Positions 27,360 through 40,089 of a DNA stretch of 64,000 nucleotides are shown here, one piece after another (the stretch's first letter is position 1; every line of letters begins with the position of its first letter). Position numbers and translations under genes: made by a program. The stretch is from a virus: IMG/VR virus record IMGVR_UViG_3300031951_000035, positions 62,001 through 126,000 of that record, one strand, 5' to 3'. The notes below the pieces were generated by a model. It ran no database searches and was not told the origin of the DNA. It saw only the letters and a list, made by a program, of their open reading frames with translations.

Positions 27360-27446
27360 TGGTATGCCGTTTGCTATATGCAAATCCCGTGCCGGAAATT
27401 AATTCTCGTTTGGCACGATTTTTGCGAGCGGCCCAAAGCGGCCGCT
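27360..27446 (+). repeat. Repeat block: sigma-54-like sites and CCAAAG hairpin (copy 1)
   Basis: Plus-strand sites at 27360-27375 and 27411-27426 (TGGCACG-N4-TTGC), an opposite-strand site at 27379-27394, then hairpin AGCGGCC-CAAAGC-GGCCGCT at 27427-27446. The GG and GC pairs are exactly 10 nt apart in each site. Confidence 0.6.
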
Positions 27447-27531
27447 CCGCTGCGGCCACTTAATGGGGTTGTATTAGAGTGCTACCCATTTTGCAACTGT
27501 CGGCGGGCTGGGTAGCCCCACCATAATTATG

Positions 27532-27798
27532 TCAGTATGTAGGGAGTTCAGCAATAATCTGCTTGGCAAAAAGATGGTTTGGCTGTCCCAAAACGTCTGC
27601 TTCTTCAAGATCATCACCCTTGTAACATCCAATATTCATACTGTACGGAAGAATAACATCAAGCGATCCATTGTAGTCTAAGGCAGCATTGCTAGGACGC
27701 AACTGAATCACCAGTTGTTTACCGCCAGGAAAATTGATGATGAAATCGCAATCATGATCTGGTGCTTCTTGATGAATCTCAGTGAACTTATAGTTCAT
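27532..27798 (-). CDS. Hypothetical protein, 88 aa
   Basis: MNYKFTEIHQEAPDHDCDFI, then FPGGKQLVIQLRPSNAALDY and DVILPYSMNIGCYKG. SD AAGGAAA. Small beta protein of unknown role. Confidence 0.7.
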   Translation of the reverse strand: MNYKFTEIHQEAPDHDCDFIINFPGGKQLVIQLRPSNAALDYNGSLDVILPYSMNIGCYKGDDLEEADVLGQPNHLFAKQIIAELPTY

Positions 27799-27832
27799 TT
27801 CTATTTCCTTAGATTAGAGGTAAAGCTGCCAA

Positions 27833-27905
27833 TGCCCCCACTAGGACTTGAACCTAGAACCTATCGGTTAAAAGCCGAATGCTCTGCCAATTGAGCTATA
27901 AGGGC
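27833..27905 (-). tRNA. tRNA-Lys(TTT)
   Basis: 73 nt. Acceptor GCCCTTA/TGGGGGC (two G-U), D-arm GCTC-AATTGGCA-GAGC, anticodon loop CTTTTAA, T-arm CTAGG-TTCAAGT-CCTAG. All arms regular. CCA not encoded. Confidence 0.9.
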
Positions 27906-27913
27906 AACTATTG

Positions 27914-28297
27914 TTAGTTTCTTTCCTCAAGAATGTAGACTTGCCGGTCTTGAGTTACCAGGGTGGCATATTCATATCCGTCCCAGATGAACTCCCCGTC
28001 ATCACTATCCCGCCTCCAGTGAGGATCGACAATAGGATTATAGAACAAACGCTCCAGATTGTCAACCGGAATATTTTCAGTCACGATCAATTCCGCACAC
28101 TCAATCCATCCCGCCACATCCTTAACGCCTTCGGCGTGGACCTTCTTAGCCTTGTTCACCTTGTTAACCAGCTTGCACTCAAGCATTTCTAGGGAATACT
28201 GCTTGGGGTCAAGATACCTAACAGCACTATCCGGCCCACGAACTTGCCACTTCTTGAAGTTCTCACCGCTTTGAAGATGGAAGCGAACCTTATACAT
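27914..28297 (-). CDS. Hypothetical protein, 127 aa
   Basis: The start at MYKVRFHLQSGENFKKWQVR follows SD AAAGGAG. Contains KVHAEGVKDVAGWIECAELI and WDGYEYATLV. This type occurs in phages as a protein of unknown function. Confidence 0.7.
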   Translation of the reverse strand: MYKVRFHLQSGENFKKWQVRGPDSAVRYLDPKQYSLEMLECKLVNKVNKAKKVHAEGVKDVAGWIECAELIVTENIPVDNLERLFYNPIVDPHWRRDSDDGEFIWDGYEYATLVTQDRQVYILEERN

Positions 28298-28316
28298 TTC
28301 TATCTCCTTTTCCACC

Positions 28317-28344
28317 ATTCTACCATACTTTTAGTGTATGTCAA
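28317..28344 (-). promoter_or_regulatory. Promoter upstream of 27914-28297 (TTGACA-16-TAGAAT)
   Basis: Sits one base from the 3' end of tRNA-Glu, as the promoter at 9738 sits against tRNA-Ser. Spacer is a near dyad (ATAC...GTAT). Confidence 0.65.
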
Positions 28345-28345
28345 G

Positions 28346-28417
28346 TGACCCCACGGGGAATCGAACCCCGGTTAACGGATTGAAAGTCCGCTTTCCTAGC
28401 CGCTAGAAGATGGGGCC
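28346..28417 (-). tRNA. tRNA-Glu(TTC)
   Basis: 72 nt. Acceptor GGCCCCA/TGGGGTC, anticodon loop CTTTCAA with stem GCGGA/TCCGT, T-arm CGGGG-TTCGATT-CCCCG. CCA not encoded. Confidence 0.9.
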
Positions 28418-28422
28418 AACTA

Positions 28423-28623
28423 TCACTGTGGCTCCGCAAGAATTGGTGCTTCGCTGTCGTAATCCATATAGTAAATAATCGCGTCTTCGATGAGAGGAAT
28501 CAGACGCTCTCGCATCTTTTTCAATTCATCATTAGAAAGACTAGGGTAGTCCAGAGCCTCTACCCATGACTGAAAGAACGCATAGTCAATCAGGATCGAA
28601 GAAGTTTGTGCAAAATTACTCAT
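28423..28623 (-). CDS. Hypothetical helical protein, 66 aa
   Basis: MSNFAQTSSILIDYAFFQSW, then DELKKMRERLIPLIEDAIIY. SD AAAGG lies a little far (9 nt). Unknown. Confidence 0.65.
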   Translation of the reverse strand: MSNFAQTSSILIDYAFFQSWVEALDYPSLSNDELKKMRERLIPLIEDAIIYYMDYDSEAPILAEPQ

Positions 28624-28640
28624 CGTTGATTGCCTTTCGA

Positions 28641-28985
28641 TTAGCGGAACCACGGGTTCGTTGACGCTTGGGACGGCTGTCGTGCAATCCACTCCCCGAC
28701 CTGTGGGGGCTGTGACCCTTGCCCAATTCCCACACCGGGCGGATATTGAGTTGGATTGGTTCGTATTTGCGGGACTTGCTCATGCCATTTTCCATCGGGG
28801 TGAAGGTGATACAGTTTACCACTGTTTGGATTAAATGCAACTTGCCAAGTCATAATCGGCTGTGGCTGTGCATACGATTCCTGAACGATTACCTGGGGAG
28901 GAAGCATCGGCATCTGCTGATACTGCCTCCAACCATTATACGCCATTCCTACGATTGTCAAGCCAATTCCAATCCATTGGATCAT
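28641..28985 (-). CDS. Membrane-anchored proline/glutamine-rich protein, 114 aa
   Basis: ATG at 28985 with SD AGGAG. MIQWIGIGLTIVGMAYNGW is an N-terminal transmembrane segment; the rest is low-complexity and rich in P, Q and G with a FNPNSGKLYHLHPDGKWHE strand pair. Unknown. Confidence 0.7.
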   Translation of the reverse strand: MIQWIGIGLTIVGMAYNGWRQYQQMPMLPPQVIVQESYAQPQPIMTWQVAFNPNSGKLYHLHPDGKWHEQVPQIRTNPTQYPPGVGIGQGSQPPQVGEWIARQPSQASTNPWFR

Positions 28986-28987
28986 AG

Positions 28988-29185
28988 TCAACTCCTATTA
29001 AAACTAGCCCTCGCTCCAAGAACCATGCACAACCACATCGTCGCAAAGAAAGTCTTGATAGTGACCGGGATGCTAAGACCAAACAGGAGATTCAGACTCC
29101 AGATGGTCAAAATCGGACCAAGGACAAGCATCACGATAAAGAAAAGAACCATCAGAAGAATAAGAAAGCCAGTTCCGTCAGTCAT
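28988..29185 (-). CDS. Small membrane protein, 65 aa
   Basis: Two hydrophobic segments (FLILLMVLFFIVMLVLG; IKTFFATMWLCMVLG). SD TGAGGAA. Unknown role. Confidence 0.7.
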   Translation of the reverse strand: MTDGTGFLILLMVLFFIVMLVLGPILTIWSLNLLFGLSIPVTIKTFFATMWLCMVLGARASFNRS

Positions 29186-29412
29186 TTGTTCCTCAAAGTC
29201 GGGAGATAGTAAAGATCGTACACTTCTTGCCAAGTCGGCATCTTGTGCCAGGGATCACCCTCATTCACACAGATACCATCATTGTCATACACATCATAAA
29301 AGTCAACTGTTCTTGAATCAAATCCGTCAGAGTCATCATAGCAGGCGACCACATGAAAGATTCCAAGCGGCCAATTGCGGTCGTACAAATACGTCGCCAC
29401 TTTCTCATTCAT
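29182..29412 (-). CDS. Hypothetical protein, 76 aa
   Basis: MNEKVATYLYDRNWPLGIFH then an acidic, Asp/Tyr-rich core (DDSDGFDS, VDFYDVYDNDG). ATGA overlap downstream, 8-nt overlap upstream. Unknown. Confidence 0.7.
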   Translation of the reverse strand: MNEKVATYLYDRNWPLGIFHVVACYDDSDGFDSRTVDFYDVYDNDGICVNEGDPWHKMPTWQEVYDLYYLPTLRNK

Positions 29413-29554
29413 CTTCTACTTCCTCGTAGTCCACATCGTGACAGTCACATTCCGTACAGATGTTATTGTCAAACGTGGTGTAGGTAGTCCCGTCAAGGTG
29501 TGCCCAGGCGTCGAAAACAACTTCGCCGCCACATTCCTTACATCTAGCCCACAT
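29405..29554 (-). CDS. Small zinc-ribbon protein, 49 aa
   Basis: MWARCKECGGEVVFDAWAHL and ICTECDCHD: two CxxC knuckles about 30 residues apart make a minimal zinc ribbon. SD AAAGGAG. Conserved-looking phage type. Confidence 0.7.
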   Translation of the reverse strand: MWARCKECGGEVVFDAWAHLDGTTYTTFDNNICTECDCHDVDYEEVEDE

Positions 29555-29575
29555 GGTGTTTCTCCTTTACCCGCA

Positions 29576-29610
29576 TGGTGGGGGCATGGCATTGTGCCAC
29601 ACCCCCACCA
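29576..29610 (-). other. GC hairpin in the leader of 29405-29554
   Basis: Stem of 9 plus 5 bp with a 2-nt internal mismatch and a 3-nt loop. It lies 22 nt upstream of an ATG, just after the stop of the previous gene, so it could be a terminator or a leader structure. Confidence 0.45.
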
Positions 29611-29624
29611 CACAGTCAAGTCCC

Positions 29625-29837
29625 TCACGAACAGGACGGATCGACCATCCGGTCACACCGCAGGGTACGGACCTTGTTGTCCGCACTACGGATGCGGGCA
29701 TAGGGACCGTTGGGGCCGAACCCGACGATCTCCACCACGCCGGCGTGGAACTTGAGGACGTTCCGACGACCGTGCTTGGGGTACTTGCACACAAGACGCT
29801 GACCGGCCGAAATCGACAGGCCCGTGAAAACGTTCAT
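29625..29837 (-). CDS. Small beta protein, 70 aa; paralogue of 33640-33840
   Basis: YPKHGRRNVLKFHAGVVEIV then GPNGPYARIRSADNKVRTL aligns with YPVHGTKNVLRRVVGVKVRS and GPNGRGITVQQKNGEIRSL at 33640. Small SH3-like barrel is likely. Start at the second Met by SD distance. Confidence 0.7.
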   Translation of the reverse strand: MNVFTGLSISAGQRLVCKYPKHGRRNVLKFHAGVVEIVGFGPNGPYARIRSADNKVRTLRCDRMVDPSCS

Positions 29838-29876
29838 TTTCATTTTCCTTTGTGAAGTGGTACTAACTCTATCGAC

Positions 29877-29904
29877 ATTCTACACAGAAAACTTTAGAAG
29901 TCAA
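29877..29904 (-). promoter_or_regulatory. Promoter for 29625-29837 (TTGACT-16-TAGAAT)
   Basis: Minus-strand hexamers at the end of the preceding gene; CGATAG follows right after the -10. Confidence 0.6.
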
Positions 29905-30185
29905 GCCTCAACGGGCTGGCTTGCTTCCTCGACAGTCTCGACAGCCTCGACCTTGACCTTCTTCTTCTTCGGAGGCTTGGGATTGGCAAGGCTCACGCCC
30001 ATACGCCGCTTCGCCCAAACCTTAAGACCCTGCGTACCAAGATCAGTGATATCGTCAATGTTCACGGCGTCGTAGGTGCGGCCATGCACACCACGGACAG
30101 CCTTAGAAAGACGCTGACGAACATCAATCACATCGACCTCATGACCATCCGACACAATCTCGACCGTAAACGTAAACTTCTGCAT
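29901..30185 (-). CDS. Hypothetical protein, 94 aa
   Basis: N-terminal alpha/beta part (FTFTVEIVSDGHEVDVIDV), then a lysine-rich stretch PPKKKKVKVEA and an acidic end. Possibly nucleic-acid binding by charge only. Confidence 0.65.
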   Translation of the reverse strand: MQKFTFTVEIVSDGHEVDVIDVRQRLSKAVRGVHGRTYDAVNIDDITDLGTQGLKVWAKRRMGVSLANPKPPKKKKVKVEAVETVEEASQPVEA

Positions 30186-30203
30186 TATTAAAACCTTTCA
30201 AGT

Positions 30204-30695
30204 TTAGAACCAATAGGGCCGACACCGACCCTTTTCCCATTTAGCGAACCTAACCTTGTCCCGCCTGTAGTAAGTCCTATAGGCTTCCACCGCATCAGGA
30301 TTCCGGTATTCATCCGGCATGGCCTGTGCGAAATCCGTCATTGGGACGTTGGGGATATTATCCCACAAGGTTCCCATTCTGTCAATACCTTTCTCGCAAA
30401 AATGTTCCTTGCAAAACCTCAAGGAATATTCCTTGCAAAGTTCCTTCCCGTGGATATACGCCCAGGCAAAGTTAAGCTTGGAATCGCCAACCCAACGGGT
30501 ACAGGGGTGATTGTGATATCCGCCCGCGAGAGGCTTTCCAGCCTTTGTCAAGGGCATATCCTGATCCTGAACTCCATGACGACGGAGAGCAGACCCCATT
30601 TGCTGGTAGAGTTCAACCACCATCTTGGGGACATGCTTATCACAGTAGAACTGTGCCGCAATCTTGGGATCGTTATCTAGGACGAAGATATTCAT
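30204..30695 (-). CDS. Conserved-type phage protein (MNIFVLDxDP family), 163 aa
   Basis: MNIFVLDNDPKIAAQFYCDK then HVPKMVVELYQQM is a distinct N-terminal signature seen in many phage proteins of unknown function, with conserved CDKH and HPCTRWVGDS blocks and a final CRPYWF. Length is typical. Promoter at 30716-30743. Confidence 0.75.
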   Translation of the reverse strand: MNIFVLDNDPKIAAQFYCDKHVPKMVVELYQQMGSALRRHGVQDQDMPLTKAGKPLAGGYHNHPCTRWVGDSKLNFAWAYIHGKELCKEYSLRFCKEHFCEKGIDRMGTLWDNIPNVPMTDFAQAMPDEYRNPDAVEAYRTYYRRDKVRFAKWEKGRCRPYWF

Positions 30696-30715
30696 CATTT
30701 GCTCCTGTGTGACTT

Positions 30716-30743
30716 ATTCTACACTACTTATCGGCCGAGTCAA
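30716..30743 (-). promoter_or_regulatory. Promoter for 30204-30695 (TTGACT-16-TAGAAT)
   Basis: CGATA in the spacer; 20 bp upstream of the ATG. Confidence 0.65.
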
Positions 30744-30775
30744 GCATCTGGGATAAAAAAAAGAAGAATTTTCTT

Positions 30776-30811
30776 TGGCACGGTAATTGCGAGCGGCCCA
30801 AAGCGGCCGCT
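30776..30811 (+). repeat. Repeat block: sigma-54-like site plus CCAAAG hairpin (copy 2)
   Basis: Site TGGCACGGTAATTGCG at 30776-30791 followed directly by AGCGGCC-CAAAGC-GGCCGCT at 30792-30811. Confidence 0.6.
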
Positions 30812-30857
30812 CCGCTGCGTCCCTTACTATAAGGAAAGCAACGGTTTGGCCCTTTGG

Positions 30858-31085
30858 TCACTTGTAAGTGGTTACAGCCAGGGTGCAATCCACGATATGA
30901 TCAATGGTTTCTTCACTCTTCCAATATCCAAACCTATTTTGGCTAAAACACCAAACATTATTAGGTACAATTTCGGACATAAGTTTGATGTAGACCAGAT
31001 CATTCCATGTGAAAGTTTCACCAATATTAACAGCCCCAAAAGTAGTCTTAGAAGGACTTCTGACGTTATGCTTAACCGTGATCAT
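30858..31085 (-). CDS. Hypothetical beta protein, 75 aa
   Basis: The start at MITVKHNVRSPSKTTFGAVN is set by SD GGAGAAG. The pattern T.FGAV.IGETF...D.VYIKL recurs in small phage proteins. Ends in DHIVDCTLAVTTYK. Unknown. Confidence 0.7.
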   Translation of the reverse strand: MITVKHNVRSPSKTTFGAVNIGETFTWNDLVYIKLMSEIVPNNVWCFSQNRFGYWKSEETIDHIVDCTLAVTTYK

Positions 31086-31305
31086 TCTTATCTTCTCCAA
31101 AAGTGCAACAATCGTAATCCAACAATTCGCTATTTACTTCAAGGATTTCCTTCGTCAATTCACTATCTGGCATTTGAGAAATAGCCTCAGTCAGATAGTA
31201 GTGAAGCATATCCTCCATTTTTCGCATATCAAGACCATCAATGATATTTTCTACATACCTATTGATGATACATGCACGGTTGGAACTATTGATTTCAATC
31301 GCCAT
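31072..31305 (-). CDS. Hypothetical helical protein, 77 aa
   Basis: MAIEINSSNRACIINRYVEN then EDMLHYYLTEAISQMPDS and LTKEILEVNSELLD. Starts in an SD-bearing overlap with the previous gene. Unknown. Confidence 0.65.
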   Translation of the reverse strand: MAIEINSSNRACIINRYVENIIDGLDMRKMEDMLHYYLTEAISQMPDSELTKEILEVNSELLDYDCCTFGEDKNDHG

Positions 31306-31546
31306 TATCTTCTCCGAAGATGTTATCCCAATGTTCCGGGTCAATCCCGCTCATGCACAGTTCACGATCATCGGCAGATAAATAGGGAAAGCAATCCTGG
31401 GTAAGACCGCCATTCAACCACCTATTCATATCCGCCAAGTTGACGGTAACAGTAAACGGCTTTCCGTTAATACTCTCACCTTCCATCATCAGAATCTTCC
31501 CGTTCACGCTGACGGTTTTCTTACAATTCTCAAGGGCGTATCGCAT
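31295..31546 (-). CDS. Hypothetical protein, 83 aa
   Basis: MRYALENCKKTVSVNGKILM, a beta hairpin, then LADMNRWLNGGLTQDCFPYL and an acidic end. Unknown. Confidence 0.7.
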   Translation of the reverse strand: MRYALENCKKTVSVNGKILMMEGESINGKPFTVTVNLADMNRWLNGGLTQDCFPYLSADDRELCMSGIDPEHWDNIFGEDNGD

Positions 31547-31549
31547 AGT

Positions 31550-31780
31550 TCACTCCTTATTCCAGCCGGATTGTTCCATGATATCGTCAACTGAAAAGAC
31601 TGCGGTCAGTTCATCGGCGGTTTTCTTAGTGCGGAATCCCCTCTCGTCAACAGTCATGAACCTGTCCAGTTCGTCATTATCATTCGTCTCCCAGATAGCG
31701 GCACAAGCCGCCTCCATAGGAGTTTTGTTAGTAGAGTAGATTAGTTCCAGCGTCCCGCAGTTAATGTAATACTTAGGCAT
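31550..31780 (-). CDS. Hypothetical protein, 76 aa
   Basis: The start at MPKYYINCGTLELIYSTNKT overlaps the upstream gene by 8 nt. Contains PMEAACAAIWETND. Familiar phage type of unknown function. Confidence 0.7.
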   Translation of the reverse strand: MPKYYINCGTLELIYSTNKTPMEAACAAIWETNDNDELDRFMTVDERGFRTKKTADELTAVFSVDDIMEQSGWNKE

Positions 31781-31979
31781 TGTTAAACTCCGTGTGGTAG
31801 TATTCCATGTCTGTGTCGCAAACCACTTCCGCCTCCCCGTCAGCAAATCTTGCACCACAAACTGGTGTTCCATGCTTCTCATAATAGCAAGGACTGACGT
31901 ATTCCTCCGTTCCACAGGATGGGCAACACCATAGGTGTCGGATTTGCCGGTCATTAATTATAACCCAATTCTCATTCAT
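31773..31979 (-). CDS. Hypothetical zinc-ribbon protein, 68 aa
   Basis: WCCPSCGTEEYVSPCYYEKH then VCGARFADGEAEVVC gives four to six Cys in a ribbon-like pattern. ATGA overlap with the upstream membrane gene. Confidence 0.7.
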   Translation of the reverse strand: MNENWVIINDRQIRHLWCCPSCGTEEYVSPCYYEKHGTPVCGARFADGEAEVVCDTDMEYYHTEFNNA

Positions 31980-32110
31980 GGCACGATCCTCAGATGATTA
32001 ATGAGATAAATGATAATTTCAAGCAATTTCCATACACCTAGAGGAAAAACAACAAATACACTAAAAAAAGCCAGCAAAATCTGTAGATGAAAACTTGTTT
32101 CTGACATCAT
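31976..32110 (-). CDS. Small membrane protein, 44 aa
   Basis: MMSETSFHLQILLAFFSVFV then WKLLEIIIYLINHLR: one or two hydrophobic segments. SD AAAGG; ATGA overlaps on both sides. Confidence 0.65.
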   Translation of the reverse strand: MMSETSFHLQILLAFFSVFVVFPLGVWKLLEIIIYLINHLRIVP

Positions 32111-32283
32111 TTTGCCTTTACAGTAATGGTCTGTTCTTCAGTGTCAATCTCTAGGGTCACAATTTCATCATACCTAAAAAACTTATCAGTCACTTGTTTA
32201 GCCTGCATTTCAATATCAGGCGGCAAATCCTGAAAAGCGTAGTATAAAGCGTCAGGGGTTTTCATCATCACTTCAATTTTCAT
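32107..32283 (-). CDS. Hypothetical protein, 58 aa
   Basis: MKIEVMMKTPDALYYAFQDL then FRYDEIVTLEIDTEEQTITV. Small alpha/beta protein of a kind common in phages. ATGA overlap with the membrane gene. Confidence 0.7.
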   Translation of the reverse strand: MKIEVMMKTPDALYYAFQDLPPDIEMQAKQVTDKFFRYDEIVTLEIDTEEQTITVKAK

Positions 32284-32298
32284 AATATTTTATGCCTT

Positions 32299-33003
32299 TC
32301 AATGGGAGGGGAATAAGACGTTGGCCAAACCCTTGACGCACATCCGGCAGGCGATATCGTTTTTCGCCCCCGTGCAAGTAACTTCCGACCGTCCCCGGCG
32401 AATCTCCGGGCAAGTGACAAACTTTTCCCCATTCAGGATAACCAGTTTGGGGAGAGACTTCCGCCATGCATCAGCCTTTGCCTTGCCACGAGGCCGCTTG
32501 GGGGCAATCTTCTGGTCCGAATCGCACCATGCGAATCGCTTGAACCCTGCCGCCATAGCCAAACCCATATCTTCATGGTTATGGATACTGGCATAGACCG
32601 CCATATACTTATCCAGACCGGCGAGAACGTCGTCGTAGATATGAGTATAGAACCACATGTCGGGGAGGTCAAGCCCATCGGCCAGAATACTTTCGCAAGC
32701 CTCAATGACGTTGGCAATGTAGTTGTGGTCGAGTTGACCGTTCAGGAACCAGTCACCCCGTTCATGCCACCGGATCGACTTGCCCCGCTTGCGGGCGTCC
32801 AGAATCATCGCCCGGATACGATTCTTCTCCGTAATGATATTCTGGAATCCGGCGGGACGGACGGCGGGATACTGCTTTTCCGATTGTTCAGCATAACAGC
32901 CGTTGTTGAGATATGCACACGACGAGGGGCAAGTATCCCCCACGGGGCGAGACACCACAACGCAACCCTTGCCAAGTTTATCGTTCCCGTCAGCGATTTT
33001 CAT
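32299..33003 (-). CDS. Gp88-like (DUF/GP88 family) protein, 234 aa
   Basis: The start at MKIADGNDKLGKG is preferred because GGAGG lies 7 nt upstream. The N-terminal CPSSCAYLNNGCYAEQ, the RWHERGDWFLNG and WFYTHIYDD blocks, and the final CTGAKNDIACRMC match the mycobacteriophage Gp88-type family from memory. The Cys set suggests a metal site; function unknown. Two tandem promoters lie upstream. Confidence 0.75.
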   Translation of the reverse strand: MKIADGNDKLGKGCVVVSRPVGDTCPSSCAYLNNGCYAEQSEKQYPAVRPAGFQNIITEKNRIRAMILDARKRGKSIRWHERGDWFLNGQLDHNYIANVIEACESILADGLDLPDMWFYTHIYDDVLAGLDKYMAVYASIHNHEDMGLAMAAGFKRFAWCDSDQKIAPKRPRGKAKADAWRKSLPKLVILNGEKFVTCPEIRRGRSEVTCTGAKNDIACRMCVKGLANVLFPSH

Positions 33004-33026
33004 CGTATCCTCCGTTTGATACTTGG

Positions 33027-33054: not shown

Positions 33055-33105
33055 GAGCGAATCTTAAACTTTTTTCTTTTACCCGTCGTTCGCTTGTGTG
33101 CCCCG

Positions 33106-33133
33106 ATTCTAGCATAGATATCGACACTTGCAA
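33106..33133 (-). promoter_or_regulatory. Distal promoter of the Gp88-like gene (TTGCAA-16-TAGAAT)
   Basis: 79 bp from the proximal one; CGATA in the spacer. Same design as 27222/27300. Confidence 0.65.
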
Positions 33134-33165: not shown

Positions 33166-33229
33166 TGGCACGATAATTGCGAGCGGCCCAAAGAGGCCGC
33201 TCCGTCGCGGCCCCTGCCATTTTGGCAGG
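33166..33229 (+). repeat. Repeat block: sigma-54-like site, CCAAAG hairpin, TGCCA dyad (copy 3)
   Basis: Site at 33166-33181, hairpin AGCGGCC-CAAAGA-GGCCGCT at 33182-33201, then CCTGCCA-TTT-TGGCAGG at 33213-33229. Confidence 0.6.
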
Positions 33230-34440: not shown

Positions 34441-34451
34441 ATTTTTTAGCG

Positions 34452-34622
34452 TCAGTAGTTATCCTCGTCGTCGTCCCACGGATCATCCGGGGCAAAATCC
34501 TCGTCGTCGTCGCCGGTCATGATATCATCATCATCCAAGAAATCCTCGTCAAAGCCGTCATACGTCGCGGCCTCAATCATATCATCATCGTCTTCGTCGT
34601 ACAGGGGGTCCGGGTGACTCAT
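34452..34622 (-). CDS. Extremely acidic protein, 56 aa
   Basis: MSHPDPLYDEDDDDMIEA then runs of D (FDEDFLDDDD, GDDDEDF, WDDDEDNY): 28 of 56 residues are D or E and none are K or R. SD AAAAGGAG. Such composition is seen in DNA-mimic proteins, but no function can be assigned. Confidence 0.7.
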   Translation of the reverse strand: MSHPDPLYDEDDDDMIEAATYDGFDEDFLDDDDIMTGDDDEDFAPDDPWDDDEDNY

Positions 34623-34638
34623 GACATTTCTCCTTTTA

Positions 34639-34842
34639 CTAGATTTGCCAATATCCGTCAACAAACAGGGCGAACCTCGGGGAAATCCACACCATACCAG
34701 CGTCCCCTACGTGCCCAAGATTGTATTTGACACTGGTAACGTCGGGGAAATACTTTCGGGCCATGTTCATCGCGTCGAGTCGGTCTTTACCGCAAACAGC
34801 ACCGGCAAGAAACCCATCCACGAAGACTTCAAGTTTCATCAT
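34639..34842 (-). CDS. Hypothetical protein, 67 aa
   Basis: MMKLEVFVDGFLAGAVCGKD, RLDAMNMARKYFPDVTSV, then a beta end FALFVDGYWQI. SD GGAG. Unknown. Confidence 0.7.
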   Translation of the reverse strand: MMKLEVFVDGFLAGAVCGKDRLDAMNMARKYFPDVTSVKYNLGHVGDAGMVWISPRFALFVDGYWQI

Positions 34843-34861
34843 TTCCGTCTCCCATTTCCTT

Positions 34862-34889
34862 ATTCTACCTTATCGGCAATCGAAGTCAA
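34862..34889 (-). promoter_or_regulatory. Proximal promoter of 34639-34842 (TTGACT-16-TAGAAT)
   Basis: CGATA in the spacer. First of a tandem pair 78 bp apart. Confidence 0.6.
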
Positions 34890-34939
34890 GGGGATTCAAT
34901 CTTTTTTTTCTTTTCCCTACCCCGTTGGGTTGTGCGTTC

Positions 34940-34966
34940 ATTCTACCATAGATATCGGCTTGTCAA
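34940..34966 (-). promoter_or_regulatory. Distal promoter of 34639-34842 (TTGACA-15-TAGAAT)
   Basis: CGATA in the spacer. Spacer 15 nt, so probably weaker. Confidence 0.55.
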
Positions 34967-34997
34967 CTAGGAAAATCCACGAAAAAAAGATTTTCTT

Positions 34998-35109
34998 TGG
35001 CACGGGGTTTGCTAATGCAAGTCTTGTGCCGAACTTTCTTTTTCGTTTGGCATGGCTTTTGCGAGCCGCCCAAAGCGGCGGCTCCGTCGCGGCTCTGCCA
35101 TTTTGGCAG
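34998..35109 (+). repeat. Repeat block: sigma-54-like sites, CCAAAG hairpin, TGCCA dyad (copy 4)
   Basis: Plus sites 34998-35013 and 35048-35063, minus site 35016-35031, hairpin AGCCGCC-CAAAGC-GGCGGCT at 35064-35083 (compensatory change versus copies 1-3), dyad CTGCCATTTTGGCAG at 35095-35109. Confidence 0.6.
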
Positions 35110-35167
35110 GTACTATGGTAATAACACGGCGGGGGAGTGTTACTGTCCTCCCCTGCCATGCTACTAT

Positions 35168-35317
35168 TTACTTTTTCCCATCTCTTTCTTTTAGGAAGCA
35201 GTGTGAATGAGTAGTAAAAAGGCGGGTATAATCACTAGGTTTGCCTCCATACTTTTTAGCCCTCTCCTGTGCAGAAGGAGTTAGTACAATCTCTTGCTGG
35301 CAGATTCTACATTTCAT
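35168..35317 (-). CDS. Small zinc-knuckle protein, 49 aa
   Basis: MKCRICQQEIVLTPSAQERA then KKYGGKPSDYTRLF and SHC: a CxxC plus His/Cys at the end fits a short metal knuckle. SD AAGGA. Familiar phage type. Confidence 0.7.
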   Translation of the reverse strand: MKCRICQQEIVLTPSAQERAKKYGGKPSDYTRLFTTHSHCFLKERDGKK

Positions 35318-35367
35318 ATTGTTATTCCTTGTTCTTGGTTTATTTGTCGTTCACCTTACATCACCTC

Positions 35368-35395
35368 AGCGTACCACAATCGTTCACGCTGTCAA
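35368..35395 (-). promoter_or_regulatory. Probable promoter for 35168-35317 (TTGACA-16-TACGCT)
   Basis: Good -35, weak -10; position and spacing match the others. Confidence 0.45.
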
Positions 35396-35722
35396 GCAAT
35401 CGCGGTGGATCGCCACCCAATCCTTTGTCACCACCGCTCCGTCCACGAACGGAACGTGATTTTCGAAAAACCATTCGAAGTTCTTCTGGTAAATGCGGAA
35501 AGGACTGTACTTGTTGATCCTGTCCTTTGTGGTATGGGTTCTCCATCCACCGCTCCTGATGGTAGCGGAATCGTCTGGATGGATCGTCACCACGGGGGTA
35601 GCATGGAGGATAATCGCCACACTTCCACAGGGGAGGATTTCCGCACGGGTATTGTTGCCGATTTTGCGGCGACTGGCGGAAGTCTTACCCTTGACCATCT
35701 TCACTGCGTCAATGTAATTCAT
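35384..35722 (-). CDS. Conserved-type phage protein, 112 aa
   Basis: Basic N-terminus (VKGKTSASRRKIGNNTRAE), VTIHPDDSATIRSGGWRTHT TKDRINKYSP core and FFENHVPFVDGAVV end. The RSGGWRT-TTKDRIN block recurs in phages (function unknown). ATGA overlap. Confidence 0.7.
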   Translation of the reverse strand: MNYIDAVKMVKGKTSASRRKIGNNTRAEILPCGSVAIILHATPVVTIHPDDSATIRSGGWRTHTTKDRINKYSPFRIYQKNFEWFFENHVPFVDGAVVTKDWVAIHRDCLTA

Positions 35723-35916
35723 TCTGCCCTCACGAAAAAAGGATGATCGTCACAACTCATCTTCACCAGCCAATTCCGGCCCGATCCATCTTCCACGGAA
35801 ATGCTATTGACCATTCCGGTCGCCTGCCTTCCCGAACAGAGTAGGATAGTAACTACCTTTCGGGTTTGCATGGCTTCACAAAGCCAAGTAAAAGAGTAAA
35901 CGGGGGGTGCGGTCAT
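35719..35916 (-). CDS. Hypothetical protein, 65 aa
   Basis: MTAPPVYSFTWLCEAMQTRK then VVTILLCSGRQATGMVNSIS and DGSGRNWLVKMSC. Small barrel is likely. SD AAAGGTG; the promoter at 35964 and a GC hairpin lie upstream. Confidence 0.7.
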   Translation of the reverse strand: MTAPPVYSFTWLCEAMQTRKVVTILLCSGRQATGMVNSISVEDGSGRNWLVKMSCDDHPFFVRAE

Positions 35917-35936
35917 ATTTCACCTTTTGTGGGATA

Positions 35937-35963
35937 GTGGGGGCGGGTTTTACCCCGCCCCAC
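35937..35963 (-). other. GC hairpin at the start of the 35719-35916 transcript
   Basis: GTGGGGGCGGG pairs with CCCGCCCCAC (one bulge). It lies just downstream of the -10, so the mRNA would begin with this hairpin, as in some stabilised leaders. Confidence 0.5.
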
Positions 35964-35990
35964 AGTGTACCAGTTATTCCCGATTGTCAA
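35964..35990 (-). promoter_or_regulatory. Promoter for 35719-35916 (TTGACA-15-TACACT)
   Basis: Spacer 15 nt; placed between 35996-36145 and the hairpin. Confidence 0.5.
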
Positions 35991-35995
35991 GCTCC

Positions 35996-36145
35996 TCACC
36001 AAAGGTTTTTCATTGAGCAAAATGCCTTTGCGTTTTGACAGGCGAACTCTCCGTAGAAAACTGCCACGATTCGGTTTCCTACGGCTGCGTGCAAGTCGAT
36101 TACCGAGTACCCTTCCTCGCCGTGCCGAACGGTTTCGTATCGCAT
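35996..36145 (-). CDS. Hypothetical protein, 49 aa
   Basis: The start at MRYETVRHGEEGYSVIDLHA follows SD AAAGGAG; longer readings run through a hairpin. Ends VFYGEFACQNAKAFCSMKN. Unknown. Confidence 0.65.
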   Translation of the reverse strand: MRYETVRHGEEGYSVIDLHAAVGNRIVAVFYGEFACQNAKAFCSMKNLW

Positions 36146-36167
36146 TTCCGCTCCTTTCGTTTTGTGG

Positions 36168-36195
36168 ATTCTATCACACTTTCCAGCCCCGTCAA
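36168..36195 (-). promoter_or_regulatory. Promoter for 35996-36145 (TTGACG-16-TAGAAT)
   Basis: Directly follows the hairpin at 36196-36225; spacer ends AAGTGTGA. Confidence 0.6.
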
Positions 36196-36506
36196 GGGGA
36201 GGGGGAAAACTTTCCCCCTGCCCCGGACGGTTGGAGGTTACGGGCAACTTCGATCCATTTGGCCACTTCTTCCGGGGTCTGCCGGGCCATTACGTCGTCA
36301 TGCTCTTGGATACGGTAGAACTCACCATTGGGGAGAAGAATAGCTACTTCCGCCGTTGTGGATTCCCATTGAAGTTTTCCTCGCTGCGAACCATACTCTA
36401 CGTTGTGATAATGGTCACAGTAGTTACCCGGCCCCCACTGGACGGAAATTGTGCAACCATTCTGGAACTTGATTTGGAAACCCTTGCCATCGGTGATCGA
36501 AAACAT
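36192..36506 (-). CDS. Hypothetical protein, 104 aa
   Basis: MFSITDGKGFQIKFQNGCTI, YCDHYHNVEYGSQRGKLQWE, then VAILLPNGEFYRIQEHDD; the last residues are encoded by the hairpin region. Promoter at 36591. Unknown. Confidence 0.7.
   Translation of the reverse strand: MFSITDGKGFQIKFQNGCTISVQWGPGNYCDHYHNVEYGSQRGKLQWESTTAEVAILLPNGEFYRIQEHDDVMARQTPEEVAKWIEVARNLQPSGAGGKFSPSP
36196..36225 (-). terminator. GC hairpin at the end of 36192-36506
   Basis: Stem GGGGAGGGGGAAA with CCCC/TTTCCCCC (one mismatch). No U-tract; it separates one gene from the next promoter. Confidence 0.45.
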
Positions 36507-36590
36507 GCCAGCTTTCCTTTACTTGGGGTGAATTGTGAACGGGGTTTTGTTTCATTGTCCCCGTCCTAAACGCCATAGGCGTCTCTTGCG

Positions 36591-36619
36591 ATTATACTAG
36601 GCGTTGTCCAGTTCGTCAA
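36591..36619 (-). promoter_or_regulatory. Promoter for 36192-36506 (TTGACG-17-TATAAT)
   Basis: Good -10, 17-nt spacer; lies in the last codons of the upstream gene. Confidence 0.6.
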
Positions 36620-36857
36620 GCCTCTCCTGATCGGCAATCCAACGGTCTGCCCTAGATTCCGGGAAAATACCCGAAAAGCTGGTCTGCTGCACCCACCCCC
36701 GATTGTGACTGAATCTCTCCACCGCCACCGCATCGGGATTCAGCCAAACCTTACGATATCGCTTCCCGCGAGTCCCGCCGTCAAGCCACGCCTCATATTC
36801 GGCCCGGTCCTCATACGTCTGCAATTCCGCAAACTGTCCGAAAGTGAAGTTGTCCAT
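36597..36857 (-). CDS. Hypothetical acidic protein, 86 aa
   Basis: MDNFTFGQFAELQTYEDRAE then GTRGKRYRKVWLNPDAVAV and ADRWIADQERLDELDNA. SD AAAGGG. Unknown. Confidence 0.7.
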   Translation of the reverse strand: MDNFTFGQFAELQTYEDRAEYEAWLDGGTRGKRYRKVWLNPDAVAVERFSHNRGWVQQTSFSGIFPESRADRWIADQERLDELDNA

Positions 36858-36886
36858 TGTTTTTTCCCTTTACTGGTGATTCTGGG

Positions 36887-36914
36887 ATTCTACCACACTT
36901 TTCGGTTTCGTCAA
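36887..36914 (-). promoter_or_regulatory. Promoter for 36597-36857 (TTGACG-16-TAGAAT)
   Basis: Spacer ends AAGTGTGG; overlaps the end of the upstream gene by 4 nt. Confidence 0.6.
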
Positions 36915-37120
36915 GCTATTTCTTTGTGTGCTTCCCACGCATCGGCAATATTCTTCGACCGGATGAAGTCCCTATATCCCAATTCAATTCGAACAACATT
37001 ATCGACGCTTGCGGGGTTTTCCACGAAAGCCGCCAATTCTTTCATGAGGCTTTTCGCTTCCGCCACCGCCTTGTTCATATAGATACGGTGGCAACGATCC
37101 AACTTCTCGTTGATATCCAT
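36911..37120 (-). CDS. Hypothetical helical protein, 69 aa
   Basis: The start at MDINEKLDRCHRIYMNKAVA follows SD GGAGG. Helical; FIRSKNIADAWEAHKEIA at the end. Unknown. Confidence 0.7.
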   Translation of the reverse strand: MDINEKLDRCHRIYMNKAVAEAKSLMKELAAFVENPASVDNVVRIELGYRDFIRSKNIADAWEAHKEIA

Positions 37121-37143
37121 GTTCAACCTCCGGGGGTGTTTCT

Positions 37144-37171
37144 ATCTTACACTATCGGAAATCGTTGTCAA
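37144..37171 (-). promoter_or_regulatory. Promoter for 36911-37120 (TTGACA-16-TAAGAT)
   Basis: CGATA in the spacer; 24 bp upstream of the ATG. Confidence 0.6.
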
Positions 37172-37285
37172 GCGGTTTTCTTCGTCGTGCCGTTGAATCC
37201 TTCCCATGTGTTGTATCGGCATTTTACTCCCCCGACATGACTTTGCAAGCTTACAAAACTGTAAGGTTCCTAACGACATTGTAAG

Positions 37286-37412
37286 CTGTCATTTTGGCAG
37301 TTGGCATGGGATTTGCTAGCCGCCATATTGGCAGGGCGATTGGCACACGGTTTGCTGTGGCCTGCCATTTTGGCATTGGCACGGCATTTGCGAGCGGCCC
37401 AAAGCGGCCGCT
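37286..37412 (+). repeat. Repeat block: three sigma-54-like sites, TGCCA dyads, CCAAAG hairpin (copy 5)
   Basis: Sites at 37302-37317, 37341-37356 and 37377-37392 (plus strand); dyads at 37286-37300 and 37362-37375; hairpin AGCGGCC-CAAAGC-GGCCGCT at 37393-37412. Confidence 0.6.
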
Positions 37413-37454
37413 CCGCAGCGGCCATTAGCCTTTATTCTCCCGTGCCCTTTTTGG

Positions 37455-37500
37455 AGTTCCGCCGCGTCCATCCGGGGTTAGGGGGGCGGTTTCCCGCTCC
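37455..37500 (-). repeat. Direct repeat with GC hairpin (copy 1 of 2)
   Basis: About 45 nt containing CGTCCATCCGGG and GGGGGGCGG-TTTC-CCGC. The same block is at 38719-38766. Each lies just past the 3' end of a small gene (37518-37718; 38781-38951). Confidence 0.6.
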
Positions 37501-37517
37501 CCCTGTCCCCTGGAAGT

Positions 37518-37718
37518 TTATCCTACGCGAGTCATGAAAACCCTTGCGATTCCGCAAGTCGAGATGCTCCATCCCTGCTCGTCCCAAATCCACGGAGGAA
37601 GCCCCTTCGCGTCGGGCGGGAAATACCCGTCAACGTGGATCATCCGATCATCCCCTTCCATCCGCTGGACGGCACAGCCATCCTCTTCAAGCCGCTTGAT
37701 CATTTGTTCGACGGTCAT
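37518..37718 (-). CDS. Hypothetical protein, 66 aa
   Basis: The start at MTVEQMIKRLEEDGCAVQRM has SD AAGGGTTCAATC, the same leader as 38781-38951; upstream in-frame codons run through a hairpin. Ends GLPPWIWDEQGWSISTCGI. Unknown. Confidence 0.65.
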   Translation of the reverse strand: MTVEQMIKRLEEDGCAVQRMEGDDRMIHVDGYFPPDAKGLPPWIWDEQGWSISTCGIARVFMTRVG

Positions 37719-37738
37719 GATTGAACCCTTCGGGTGAG

Positions 37739-37766
37739 AGTGTACCAGATTTTCCAGCCCCGGCAA
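37739..37766 (-). promoter_or_regulatory. Probable promoter for 37518-37718 (TTGCCG-16-TACACT)
   Basis: Weaker hexamers but placed between a hairpin and an SD, like its neighbours. Confidence 0.45.
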
Positions 37767-37794
37767 GGGGAGGGGCGGTTTCCCGCCCCTCCCC
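37767..37794 (-). terminator. GC hairpin after 37802-38317
   Basis: 12-bp perfect stem GGGGAGGGGCGG-TTTC-CCGCCCCTCCCC, 7 nt past the stop. No U-tract. Confidence 0.5.
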
Positions 37795-37801
37795 GTTTGG
37801 G

Positions 37802-38317
37802 TCAGCCGATGATGTACTCCGAACCTTTCATCCGAATCGACCGGATGTTCTCCACCGCGAAATCCCGGAGCATGATAGCCTTTTCCGTTCCCTGCCGACC
37901 ACTGTGGCGGGCGGGCGGAAGCCACTTCGCCACTTCCTCCGGGTCCACGGGGGAAAGGTCGGGCATGATGTAGGCGATAACGTCGCTCCGCTCCACCTTC
38001 GCTTCGATGTACCACTTATCCTTATGGTAGACGAGAGGCGTGCCCGCGATCCGCTCCCCCCACTTCCGGGGTTCCGCGATGAAATCGGCCACCATCCCCT
38101 CACGCTCCCGCTGCCGGTTGACGGCAGACTCATAATTGAAATTGAGAACCCCGTTGACCTTGCGGACAAGCCGCAGACCGGGGTACGGGTTGCCAGCCCG
38201 CAAACGCGGTTCCGTGGATGCCACGAAGGAAACCATCGTCGCACCTTTCACGGAGTGAAGCATGGCGATAAGATCGGACGCAGAGATACCGATACGATTC
38301 GCAATCGTCGCAGACAT
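37802..38317 (-). CDS. Hypothetical protein, 171 aa
   Basis: MSATIANRIGISASDLIAML, then a basic stretch NRQREREGMVADFIAEPRKW and SPVDPEEVAKWLPPARHSG. Shares its MSA-I start and leader with 39034-39312 and 39414-39761. GC-rich codons. Unknown. Confidence 0.65.
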   Translation of the reverse strand: MSATIANRIGISASDLIAMLHSVKGATMVSFVASTEPRLRAGNPYPGLRLVRKVNGVLNFNYESAVNRQREREGMVADFIAEPRKWGERIAGTPLVYHKDKWYIEAKVERSDVIAYIMPDLSPVDPEEVAKWLPPARHSGRQGTEKAIMLRDFAVENIRSIRMKGSEYIIG

Positions 38318-38365
38318 TGTGAAATCCTCTTGAGTGTCGCGGGTTTTCCTCCCCGCGATGGTGTC

Positions 38366-38393
38366 ATTCTACCATCTATCATCGGCGTGTCAA
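38366..38393 (-). promoter_or_regulatory. Promoter for 37802-38317 (TTGACA-16-TAGAAT)
   Basis: Near-CGATA (CGATG) spacer. A hairpin (CGCGGG...CCCGCG) lies between it and the SD. Confidence 0.6.
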
Positions 38394-38434
38394 CACCCCG
38401 ACTTGAAGCTTACGGGATTGTAAGGTTCTCCCTT

Positions 38435-38643
38435 TGGCACAGCATTTGCTAGCAGCGGTATTACTATTCCTTTACTATCGTGTTACTATTCTTTTACTAT
38501 CTGTTACTGTCATTTTGGCAGGATAGTAAACGTGTGCAAGTCCCGTGCCATTTGCCCTGCCATTTTGACACTGCCATTTTGACAGCACTGCAACTCCCGT
38601 GCCAAACCGACTGCCATTTTGACAGCCGCCCAAAGCGGCGGCT
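38435..38643 (+). repeat. Repeat block: sigma-54-like sites, TGCCA dyads, CCAAAG hairpin (copy 6)
   Basis: Plus site 38435-38450; minus sites 38535-38550 and 38589-38604; dyad-like CTGTCATTTTGGCAG at 38507-38521 and further TGCCATTTTGACA variants; hairpin AGCCGCC-CAAAGC-GGCGGCT at 38624-38643; also two copies of GTTACTATTC-YTTTACTATC near 38460-38502. Confidence 0.6.
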
Positions 38644-38718
38644 GCGTTGCGGCCATAAGCGTGGTTTTCGCGGGTTGTGATCGCTCTAAAAGCCATAATC
38701 TCCCCTATTCCCTACTAG

Positions 38719-38766
38719 AAGTCCCGTCGCGTCCATCCGGGTCAGGGGGGCGGTTTCCCGCCCCCC
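38719..38766 (-). repeat. Direct repeat with GC hairpin (copy 2 of 2)
   Basis: Matches 37455-37500 (see there); hairpin GGGGGGCGG-TTTC-CCGCCCCCC, 15 nt past the stop of 38781-38951. Confidence 0.6.
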
Positions 38767-38780
38767 ATGCCCCGTGCGGA

Positions 38781-38951
38781 CTACTTCTTCCCGTCCTCCA
38801 GGGTGCGGAGAACCTTGTCCCTCTTGATCTGGTATTTCAGATCCTTGAGGACATACAAAACCATTCCCGCCTCATGGGAGGTCAGTTGGCGGCGAGAGTT
38901 CGCCACCTCCGTCAGCAGACGGATCGCATCATCCACGGTCAGGGAGTCCAT
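38781..38951 (-). CDS. Hypothetical helical protein, 56 aa
   Basis: The start at MDSLTVDDAIRLLTEVANSR has SD AAAGGTTCAATC. Helical with RQLTSHEAGMVLYVLKDLK. Unrelated in sequence to 37518-37718 although both share leader and 3' repeat. Confidence 0.65.
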   Translation of the reverse strand: MDSLTVDDAIRLLTEVANSRRQLTSHEAGMVLYVLKDLKYQIKRDKVLRTLEDGKK

Positions 38952-38994
38952 GATTGAACCTTTCGCGTGAAACGTGAAACCCTTTTCCCCGTCC

Positions 38995-39023
38995 GGGGAG
39001 GGGGGAAACGCTCCCCCCTCCCC
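38995..39023 (-). terminator. GC hairpin between 39034 and 38951
   Basis: 11-bp perfect stem GGGGAGGGGGG / CCCCCCTCCCC. A second small stem GTGCGGG/CCCGCAC lies next to it. Confidence 0.45.
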
Positions 39024-39033
39024 ATTGTGCGGG

Positions 39034-39312
39034 TCAAGCCCGCACGAACCTACCATTACTCGCCCGCATCATCTTCCGAACTACGGGGTAGACTTGCTTG
39101 CCACCCTCGCAAACCTTGACGATATTACGGAGGGTGAATGTACGATACGGCCCACGAATGTCGTCAGCCGGAATGCCGTCAATCTTGAACAACTGATAGG
39201 GTCCGTTCTTGCCCTGATGCACCGGGCCAATCCAGTGGCCCGAATAGGTGGTGACGATGCCATTCTTTACGTACCACACCTGCGTTTTGACATTTTCCAC
39301 GATTGCGGACAC
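39034..39312 (-). CDS. Hypothetical protein, 92 aa (GTG start)
   Basis: GTG at 39312 (read MSAIVENVKTQVWYVKNGIV) has SD AAAGGG. The core IGPVHQGKNGPYQLF is reminiscent of the small barrel paralogues at 29625/33640 but much diverged. Ends basic. Confidence 0.65.
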   Translation of the reverse strand: MSAIVENVKTQVWYVKNGIVTTYSGHWIGPVHQGKNGPYQLFKIDGIPADDIRGPYRTFTLRNIVKVCEGGKQVYPVVRKMMRASNGRFVRA

Positions 39313-39381
39313 TGTAAAACCCTTTCGTATTGGGAAAACTCCCCACCTTCCCACCCCCTAACGCTAGGGGAGGGGAGGGTA

Positions 39382-39405
39382 GGGAGGGGGCTTTCGCCCC
39401 CTCCC
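39382..39405 (-). terminator. GC hairpin after 39414-39761
   Basis: 10-bp perfect stem GGGAGGGGGC-TTTC-GCCCCCTCCC 8 nt past the stop. No U-tract. Confidence 0.45.
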
Positions 39406-39413
39406 GATCCCCG

Positions 39414-39761
39414 TCACCCGTAGAACGGGCTTTCCCGATCCTCTTCGGCCTTTTCCATCTGGGCCGAATAGGCCACGACCAGTGCTTCCAGCCGTTCCTC
39501 CGATCCGGGCTTCCCAACGGGAACGATCATGCCATCGTCCCAACCCTTGAACCGCTTGCTGACCTTGACCTTGACCTTCCGGGCCTTGGGAACCCGGCGG
39601 GTCACTTCCGTCCGAAGGTAGGGACCGTCGTCCGTCCAGACCATGCCCAGCGTAGTCTCCACGAACGGAATCCCTGCCGCCGCCGCTGCCGCAAACAATT
39701 CTTCGGGCTTGTGAACCTTGACCAATTCCGTGCCGGTGACGATGGAAAAGATGGCAGACAT
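39414..39761 (-). CDS. Hypothetical protein, 115 aa
   Basis: MSAIFSIVTGTELVKVHKPE, an alanine-rich segment, a basic block RRVPKARKVKVKVSKRFKGW and acidic C-terminus. SD AAGGGG. Unknown. Confidence 0.65.
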   Translation of the reverse strand: MSAIFSIVTGTELVKVHKPEELFAAAAAAGIPFVETTLGMVWTDDGPYLRTEVTRRVPKARKVKVKVSKRFKGWDDGMIVPVGKPGSEERLEALVVAYSAQMEKAEEDRESPFYG

Positions 39762-40089
39762 TGTAGAACCCCTTGAAGTAGGAAACCGATCCGAGGGACG
39801 CCCCCCGTGCCGAATAGCATATGCACTCCCCGTGCCGAAACAAAAAAAATCCTAAGTCTAATCGTGGTAAGGGTTTACGATTTATGCCATTATGGCAGAT
39901 TTCACAAAAACAGTGAGACGTTCACAAAAATTGTGAATCGCCTCCCAAAAATTGTGAATCGCTCACCGATACGGGGAACGTGCATGGCGGGGGGTTTTCC
40001 GTTCAATCGGCAGGAGTCTGGCGAGATCGTCGCGGGCCGGGGGGGTTTTTCCGCAATATCCCTCTAGCTTAGTTAATGTATTGCCTCTA
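39762..40089. other. Non-coding boundary region with repeats
   Basis: About 330 bp without a convincing gene. Holds a minus-strand sigma-54-like site (39822-39837), a TGCCATTATGGCA dyad near 39886, and the operator-like repeats at 39899-39965. It lies just before the switch from minus to plus transcription. Confidence 0.5.
39899..39965. repeat. Three operator-like dyads (TTCACAAAAATTGTGAA type)
   Basis: Three copies of TTCACAAAAA-NNGTGA with 19-23 nt spacing; the middle copy is a perfect palindrome (TTCACA-A5-TTGTGAA form), the others are half-degenerate. Confidence 0.65.

Follow-up and report, generated by a model that had tools for sequence, protein, structure and literature searches.

A 64,000-nt stretch of DNA from the IMG/VR virus record IMGVR_UViG_3300031951_000035 (positions 62,001-126,000 of a 130,685-bp record; hereafter the window) contains an array of 15-bp sites that resemble the -24/-12 elements of sigma-54 promoters. 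We propose that they are high-affinity sites for the sigma-54 factor (RpoN) of the host, or for its RNA polymerase holoenzyme (E-sigma-54), and that they serve as upstream control elements of early sigma-70-type promoters. We give this reading, which rests on sequence comparisons, a probability of about 0.5. Similar arrays are found in many unrelated virulent phages, and the sites lie at preferred distances from sigma-70-type promoters, which we state with confidence.

Sequence of the sites and the phages that carry them

An earlier note on this DNA listed 15 sites, and all 15 are present where it placed them, but only 13 match YGGCA-N6-TTGC exactly (window 27379-38604). The site at 27360 reads TGGTA...TTGC and the one at 39822-39837 reads CGGCA...GTGC. 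Most of the sites were said to read TGGCACG-N4-TTGC, which is an overstatement, as this form is exact in 7 of the 15. The sites do keep to the gaps between minus-strand genes: none lies inside a chosen minus-strand gene, and the gaps make up at most 42% of the region that holds the array (window 26200-40100).

Chance and base composition can be ruled out. In 200 dinucleotide-preserving shuffles of this region, the exact pattern appeared 0.26 times on average and never more than twice, versus 13 times in the actual sequence. The spacer is strict as well: the 13 matches belong to N6, and the remaining spacer lengths between N2 and N11 yield at most one match each. This is the spacing of a sigma-54 binding site (TGGCAYR-N4-TTGC, with GG and GC 10 bp apart and no tolerance in the spacer). 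Across the full record, YGGCAYN5TTGC has 16 matches, 13 of them in the region, and the reversed pattern has none.

We compared the sites to 29 intergenic sigma-54 sites of Salmonella LT2 that were mapped by chromatin immunoprecipitation (ChIP; PMC3844500). With a weight matrix built from the ChIP sites, 10 sites in the 64-kb window scored at or above their lower quartile, and all 10 are among the 15 (that is, 10 of the 15 score within the range of ChIP sites). Shuffled versions of the region had 0.05 such sites each. The agreement extends to positions that our searches did not constrain. Position 7 is G in 66% and A in 29% of phage sites (66% and 34% in ChIP sites), and the base following TTGC is A or T in 84% of phage sites and 93% of ChIP sites (G is at 3% in both). 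At position 6, which the searches left free to be C or T, phage sites have 58% C and 42% T, and ChIP sites have 59% C and 38% T. Given this column-by-column agreement, the identification of the motif as a sigma-54 binding-site sequence, which the earlier note had proposed, is well supported.

The earlier note had also raised the alternative of a repeat family that imitates promoters. This fails: the flanks of 340 de-duplicated phage sites are uninformative, as nothing but the motif and its inverted partner is conserved, and because the flanking DNA is not conserved, we rule out a copied repeat. In the window, several sites are followed by a 22-bp hairpin.

Single-site pattern scans of IMG/VR identified many contigs with 3-12 or more sites each, in regions of small genes. 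The carriers include podovirus contigs; the T5-like Vibrio phages D260, KIT04, VCPH, and PG07, whose sites adjoin A1/A2; Pseudomonas phages of Pakpunavirus (Ab02, PAK_P1, PAK_P4, and relatives) and Nankokuvirus (PAK_P3); Pseudomonas phage SYP; Plaisancevirus phiPMW; and Shewanella phage 1/40, with one site. A stricter pattern matched in all 30 array records that we compared, and its reversed control matched once in total. Within the family of the phage studied here, the array does recur, but patchily: of the 23 relatives whose upstream sequence is long enough, 7 carry at least two sites. This distribution is compatible with a host-dependent feature, though it is no proof of one. A literature search, with little coverage of subscription journals, found no description of such arrays.

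Two sites are often oriented toward each other, with 3-5 bp in between. The pair TGGCAYRNNNTTTGC-N4-GCAA-N4-YRTGCCA has at least 120 matches in viral contigs, where gaps of N3, N5, and N9 have 56, 68, and 3 matches and pairs with one added base within each site have none. In 84,980 genomes of bacteria and archaea, this N4 pair has two matches, and one is in a Verrucomicrobiia contig with three pairs. The gap within a pair is 3, 4, 5, or sometimes 6 bp, and tandem and divergent spacings are loose. As the internal spacing is absolute while the arrangement between units is loose, each 15-bp site is probably recognized on its own, as an asymmetric unit, in the manner of sigma-54. We rejected an RNA hairpin as a general reading of the convergent pair: the inner bases of the arms mismatch, and the C/T and G/A choices differ between arms. 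We also note a conserved G+C-rich segment (TGTTTGTCTCCGGTGCTCGGCCTCC...GCGTTGCCCGCC) that lies beside a pair in three unrelated Pseudomonas phages and is possibly a small RNA (loci L234, 4961-5190; L237, 12001-12290; L243, 6790-6970; and L295).

The phages do not seem to encode the protein that binds. None of the 31 array records (this phage and 30 others) contains an RpoN DNA-binding domain, and none contains a sigma-54 activator (PF00158) above the Pfam cut-off, with a sub-threshold match in one record (G005). Among 13 array phages compared by BLASTP, no protein family is present in all (the widest, PhoH, is in 8), and iterated hidden Markov model searches from 154 Ab02 proteins reached at most six array phages. 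In short, no phage-encoded RpoN, activator, or shared DNA-binding protein, and no regulator gene common to the array phages, was found among the array records compared. As no family is common to all array phages, the sites are more likely bound by a host protein, and a binder that the phages encode in common is unlikely.

Position of the sites relative to sigma-70-type promoters

In all six blocks of sites in the window, the outermost plus-strand site points away from an adjoining sigma-70-type promoter (a weak one in the fifth block). The distances from this site to the -35 box are, in order, 32, 32, 32, 31, 53, and 41 bp, and the DNA in between is mostly A/T-rich. Across our discovery set, 80 strong sigma-70-type promoters read away from sites and 22 read toward them (the background is about 18.5 in each class); outside the window, the distances peak near 32, 42, and 54 bp. 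A hold-out set of newly collected contigs (311 new sites, and promoters with at least 9 of 12 matches) gave 53 promoters that read away from sites and 24 that read toward them, and its distances peak near 32, 41, and 55 bp.

The sites may also keep a fixed helical phase to the -35 box, as a class-I-type upstream element would, and the evidence for this is suggestive. Phasing in the discovery set was first seen at p ~ 2e-7, and within 46 bp it had p = 4e-6. It holds within 46 bp in the hold-out set too (n = 26, R = 0.43, p = 0.008), where the phase agrees with that of the discovery set. Promoters that read toward sites, which are the control orientations, show no phasing.

Transcription from one such locus is annotated. 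The GenBank record of PAK_P4 contains an antisense RNA, based on RNA sequencing, at 55650-55850 on the minus strand, and a promoter at 55784-55811. This promoter is the sigma-70 box that adjoins the site pair at 55823-55857, and the RNA is on that promoter's strand.

These observations bear on the earlier note's view that the sites, if used, would make antisense or small RNAs. They would then be functional sigma-54 promoters that an enhancer-binding protein of the host turns on. Their near-perfect consensus and ChIP-like scores are what such promoters would have, the annotation of phage YuA includes active -24/-12 promoters, and the phage is said to need host sigma-54 (PMC5053324), and the TGCCATTTTGGCA palindromes, which are limited to certain lineages, look like activator-binding sites. 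However, what the flanks contain are sigma-70 boxes, A-tracts, DnaA boxes, and words specific to a lineage, with no obvious common activator site. The array records lack the AAA+ activator (PF00158, above cut-off) that would make a sigma-54 promoter self-sufficient. Where sites face each other across 3-5 bp, both promoters could not fire, because they would collide. YuA has no strict site of the array form in the 50 kb examined. Together with the constant outward sigma-70-type neighbour and the strand of the PAK_P4 RNA, this leaves the antisense-promoter idea unsupported, and we consider it unlikely.

We propose instead that the sites serve to control the neighbouring sigma-70-type promoter and that the binder is most likely the E-sigma-54 holoenzyme of the host. 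E-sigma-54 binds without an activator and remains as a closed complex (PMC5053324, PMC3844500). It would dock unaided, in this inactive form, at the moment that the phage DNA enters, so it would be ready before any phage protein is made. Between the -24 end of the outermost site and the -35 box of a strong, outward-reading sigma-70-type promoter there are roughly three to five turns of the helix, and the docked holoenzyme would act in cis upon that promoter. A sigma-70 promoter may be either repressed or activated by a sigma-54 site next to it (PMC3844500). We lean toward help over repression, perhaps via shared or donated contacts of the alpha subunit or a high local concentration of polymerase, as activation seems more useful to a phage. 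Both sigma-54 binding and its effect on the neighbouring promoter are what we infer from the positions and sequences of the sites. Early timing would follow from gene position: the arrays are in regions of small genes, and in T5-like phages they are in the first-step-transfer region. Bound host E-sigma-54 as an upstream element is the simplest account of the position, orientation, and strictness of the sites, their host specificity, and the missing phage partners.

Alternatively, the sites could be operators for another regulator, of the host or the phage, that has the same specificity as sigma-54 and is an ordinary activator or repressor of early promoters. The preferred distances to the -35 box are like those of activator sites, and inward-facing pairs are odd for sigma-54 but usual for dimeric regulators. 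On the other hand, the gap within pairs varies while the internal spacing is absolute, which implies a monomeric, asymmetric reading; we found no shared phage DNA-binding protein; and the column agreement with sigma-54 is too close for an easy coincidence. We think that another regulator is somewhat unlikely.

The arrays could also act as a sponge, if replicating phage DNA titrates the host's sigma-54 and silences its regulons (phage shock, pili, nitrogen control). Each genome has several high-affinity sites, which replication would multiply: besides the 16 matches to YGGCAYN5TTGC in the record studied here, a slightly stricter pattern finds 9 sites in Ab02, 9 in SYP, and 8 in D260. The region of T5-like phages that enters first holds sites and DnaA boxes. 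But a sponge needs neither a preferred distance nor an orientation to sigma-70 promoters, and both are seen, and the number of sites is low when infection starts. A sponge is quite unlikely, in our judgement.

DnaA boxes (TTATCCACA) cluster with the sites in unrelated podovirus contigs and T5-like Vibrio phages, with 56 of the 64 boxes in array loci within 250 bp of a site (L182, L158, L191, L238, L239, L241, and others). This clustering, and the sites that flank A1/A2 in T5-like phages, would suit control regions for replication or DNA entry where several host proteins land, each at its own kind of site. We consider this highly improbable: most arrays, among them the one in the window, have no DnaA boxes nearby, and the window's array is spread across six gaps, each with its own promoter.

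Several points weigh against host E-sigma-54 as an upstream element. Convergent pairs 3-5 bp apart cannot accommodate two holoenzymes, and to our knowledge such pairs have no sigma-54 counterpart. The first 14 kb of Escherichia phage T5 has no strict sites, even though its host has RpoN and T5-like Vibrio phages carry them. Our reading presupposes rpoN in the host of this phage, and a host factor of equal specificity may take the place of sigma-54. As for the geometry, phasing in the hold-out set loses significance once the range is extended to 76 bp (p = 0.11), hold-outs with strict promoters showed no phasing (n = 2; n = 16), and the counts of promoters and sites include related phages, which are not independent samples.

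Sigma-54 has been studied almost wholly as an activator-dependent promoter factor, and many bacterial sigma-54 sites give no obvious transcript. A broader proposal is that many unrelated virulent phages have convergently adopted the idle, activator-less closed complex of E-sigma-54 as a DNA-bound booster, back-to-back with sigma-70 early promoters. We regard this as doubtful. If true, sigma-54 polymerase would have a non-transcribing role, the clustered and inward-paired sites at set distances would be evolutionary evidence for a cis function of the bound polymerase, and host rpoN would be a determinant of phage early expression. The motif is also a short and precise signature for locating the early control regions of uncultured phages.

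Layout of the array and its gene context

The contig is of virulent type, with rIIA-like and terminase genes and four tRNAs. The array region consists of small minus-strand genes whose gaps carry minus-strand sigma-70-type promoters (TTGAC or TTGCAA, N15 or N16, TAGAAT). The spacer often contains GCCGATA or TCGATA. Features of the six blocks are listed in the table.

Table. Features of the six blocks of sigma-54-like sites (positions in the window).
Feature	Position	Strand	Remark
Sigma-70-type promoter TTGCAA-N16-TAGAAT	27300..27327	-	reads away from sites; DUF932 gene 26281-27183
Weak sigma-54-like site TGGTATGCCGTTTGC	27360..27374	+	score 14.4; outermost in block 1; 32 bp to -35 at 27327
Sigma-54-like site CGGCACGGGATTTGC	27380..27394	-	convergent pair with 27360
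Sigma-54-like site TGGCACGATTTTTGC	27411..27425	+	matrix score 20.2
G+C-rich inverted repeat GAGCGGCCCAAAGCGGCCGCTC	27426..27447		immediately after TTGC
Sigma-70-type promoter TTGACT-N16-TAGAAT	30716..30743	-	GCCGATA inside spacer
Sigma-54-like site TGGCACGGTAATTGC	30776..30790	+	32 bp to -35 at 30743
G+C-rich inverted repeat	30791..30812		
Sigma-70-type promoter TTGCAA-N16-TAGAAT	33106..33133	-	
Sigma-54-like site TGGCACGATAATTGC	33166..33180	+	32 bp to -35 at 33133
G+C-rich inverted repeat	33181..33202		
Palindrome CTGCCATTTTGGCAG	33214..33228		second element; present in some relatives only
Sigma-70-type promoter TTGACA-N15-TAGAAT	34940..34966	-	with GCCGATA
Sigma-54-like site TGGCACGGGGTTTGC	34998..35012	+	31 bp to -35 at 34966
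Sigma-54-like site CGGCACAAGACTTGC	35017..35031	-	faces 34998 at 4 bp
Sigma-54-like site TGGCATGGCTTTTGC	35048..35062	+	
G+C-rich inverted repeat	35063..35084		arms exchanged (GCCGCC/GGCGGC)
Palindrome CTGCCATTTTGGCAG	35095..35109		
Sigma-54-like site TGGCATGGGATTTGC	37302..37316	+	53 bp to weak -35 at 37248
Sigma-54-like site TGGCACACGGTTTGC	37341..37355	+	matrix score 15.1
Sigma-54-like site TGGCACGGCATTTGC	37377..37391	+	
Three TGCCATTTTGGCA-type palindromes (37286, 37320, 37362)	37286..37376		each immediately upstream of a sigma-54-like site
G+C-rich inverted repeat	37392..37413		
Sigma-70-type promoter TTGACA-N16-TAGAAT	38366..38393	-	with GCCGATG
Sigma-54-like site TGGCACAGCATTTGC	38435..38449	+	41 bp to -35 at 38393
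Sigma-54-like site TGGCACGGGACTTGC	38536..38550	-	
Sigma-54-like site TGGCACGGGAGTTGC	38590..38604	-	
Four TGYCATTTTGRCA palindromes (38507, 38557, 38571, 38611)	38507..38625		
G+C-rich inverted repeat CAGCCGCCCAAAGCGGCGGCTG	38623..38644		
Poor match CGGCACGGGGAGTGC, probably no site	39823..39837	-	score 10.9

In each of the six blocks, a 22-bp inverted repeat follows the proximal TTGC, and its arms are exchanged between blocks yet stay complementary (GCGGCC/GGCCGC or GCCGCC/GGCGGC). We rejected these hairpins as terminators because no U-tract lies behind them. Our geometric reasoning also disfavours a terminator, as a bound protein would halt the polymerase within the hairpin. Just one terminator-like match coincides with a site (34996-35033), and it is simply the convergent pair. 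Other gaps contain G-rich hairpins, perfect or nearly so (GGGGAGGGGG...CCCCCTCCCC; 36189-36230, 37767-37794, 38995-39023, and 39364-39423), and a 20-bp unit (TCACAAAAATTGTGAATCGC) is repeated three times in tandem at 39902-39962.

The palindrome TGCCATTTTGGCA has a strict N3 centre and occurs in 60 copies versus about 2 expected, in 13 loci only (window 33214-39898, and also L015, L040, L025, L034, L166, and L200). GCCGATA or TCGATA lies between the -35 and -10 boxes of many sigma-70-type promoters, both in the window (27300-38393) and in about 60 array loci, where 90 of 192 copies have a site within 250 bp. This spacer element may be bound by a second regulator.

Beyond the array, the phage encodes a sigma-70-family factor (40746-41240). 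This gene is followed by a gene with no assigned function, and the two (40746-42027) have relatives in at least 567 IMG/VR stretches. The gene for the large terminase (45312-48401) is interrupted by an intein, with LAGLIDADG and Hint domains.

Comparison with known systems

The phage sites share with the sigma-54 promoters of Proteobacteria (the 29 Salmonella LT2 sites; PMC3844500) the 15-bp bipartite sequence, the column preferences, and the strict GG-GC spacing. They differ in arrangement. Host sigma-54 promoters are mostly single and in the sense of the gene, with an activator site 70-150 bp upstream (PMC3844500), whereas the phage sites are clustered, often head-to-head at 3-5 bp, directed against the genes, and placed beside outward sigma-70 promoters.

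Among phages, the late promoters of Pseudomonas phage YuA are likewise annotated as -24/-12 elements, with a reported dependence on host sigma-54 (PMC5053324), but they are single, lie in sense within structural genes, and do not fit the strict motif in the 50 kb examined. The first-step-transfer region of T5 offers another parallel. In the T5-like Vibrio phages, sites adjoin A1/A2, and the intergenic stretches that hold them also hold DnaA boxes; T5 itself has the DnaA boxes there but, in its first 14 kb, not the strict sites.

A likeness to the proposed function is seen in bacterial sigma-54 sites that adjoin or overlap sigma-70 promoters, where bound E-sigma-54 can alter the output of the sigma-70 promoter (PMC3844500). 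At glmY and glmZ, E-sigma-70 and E-sigma-54 compete (PMC3844500). Those promoters overlap and read a single gene, while the phage promoters stand back-to-back with the sites at repeated distances.

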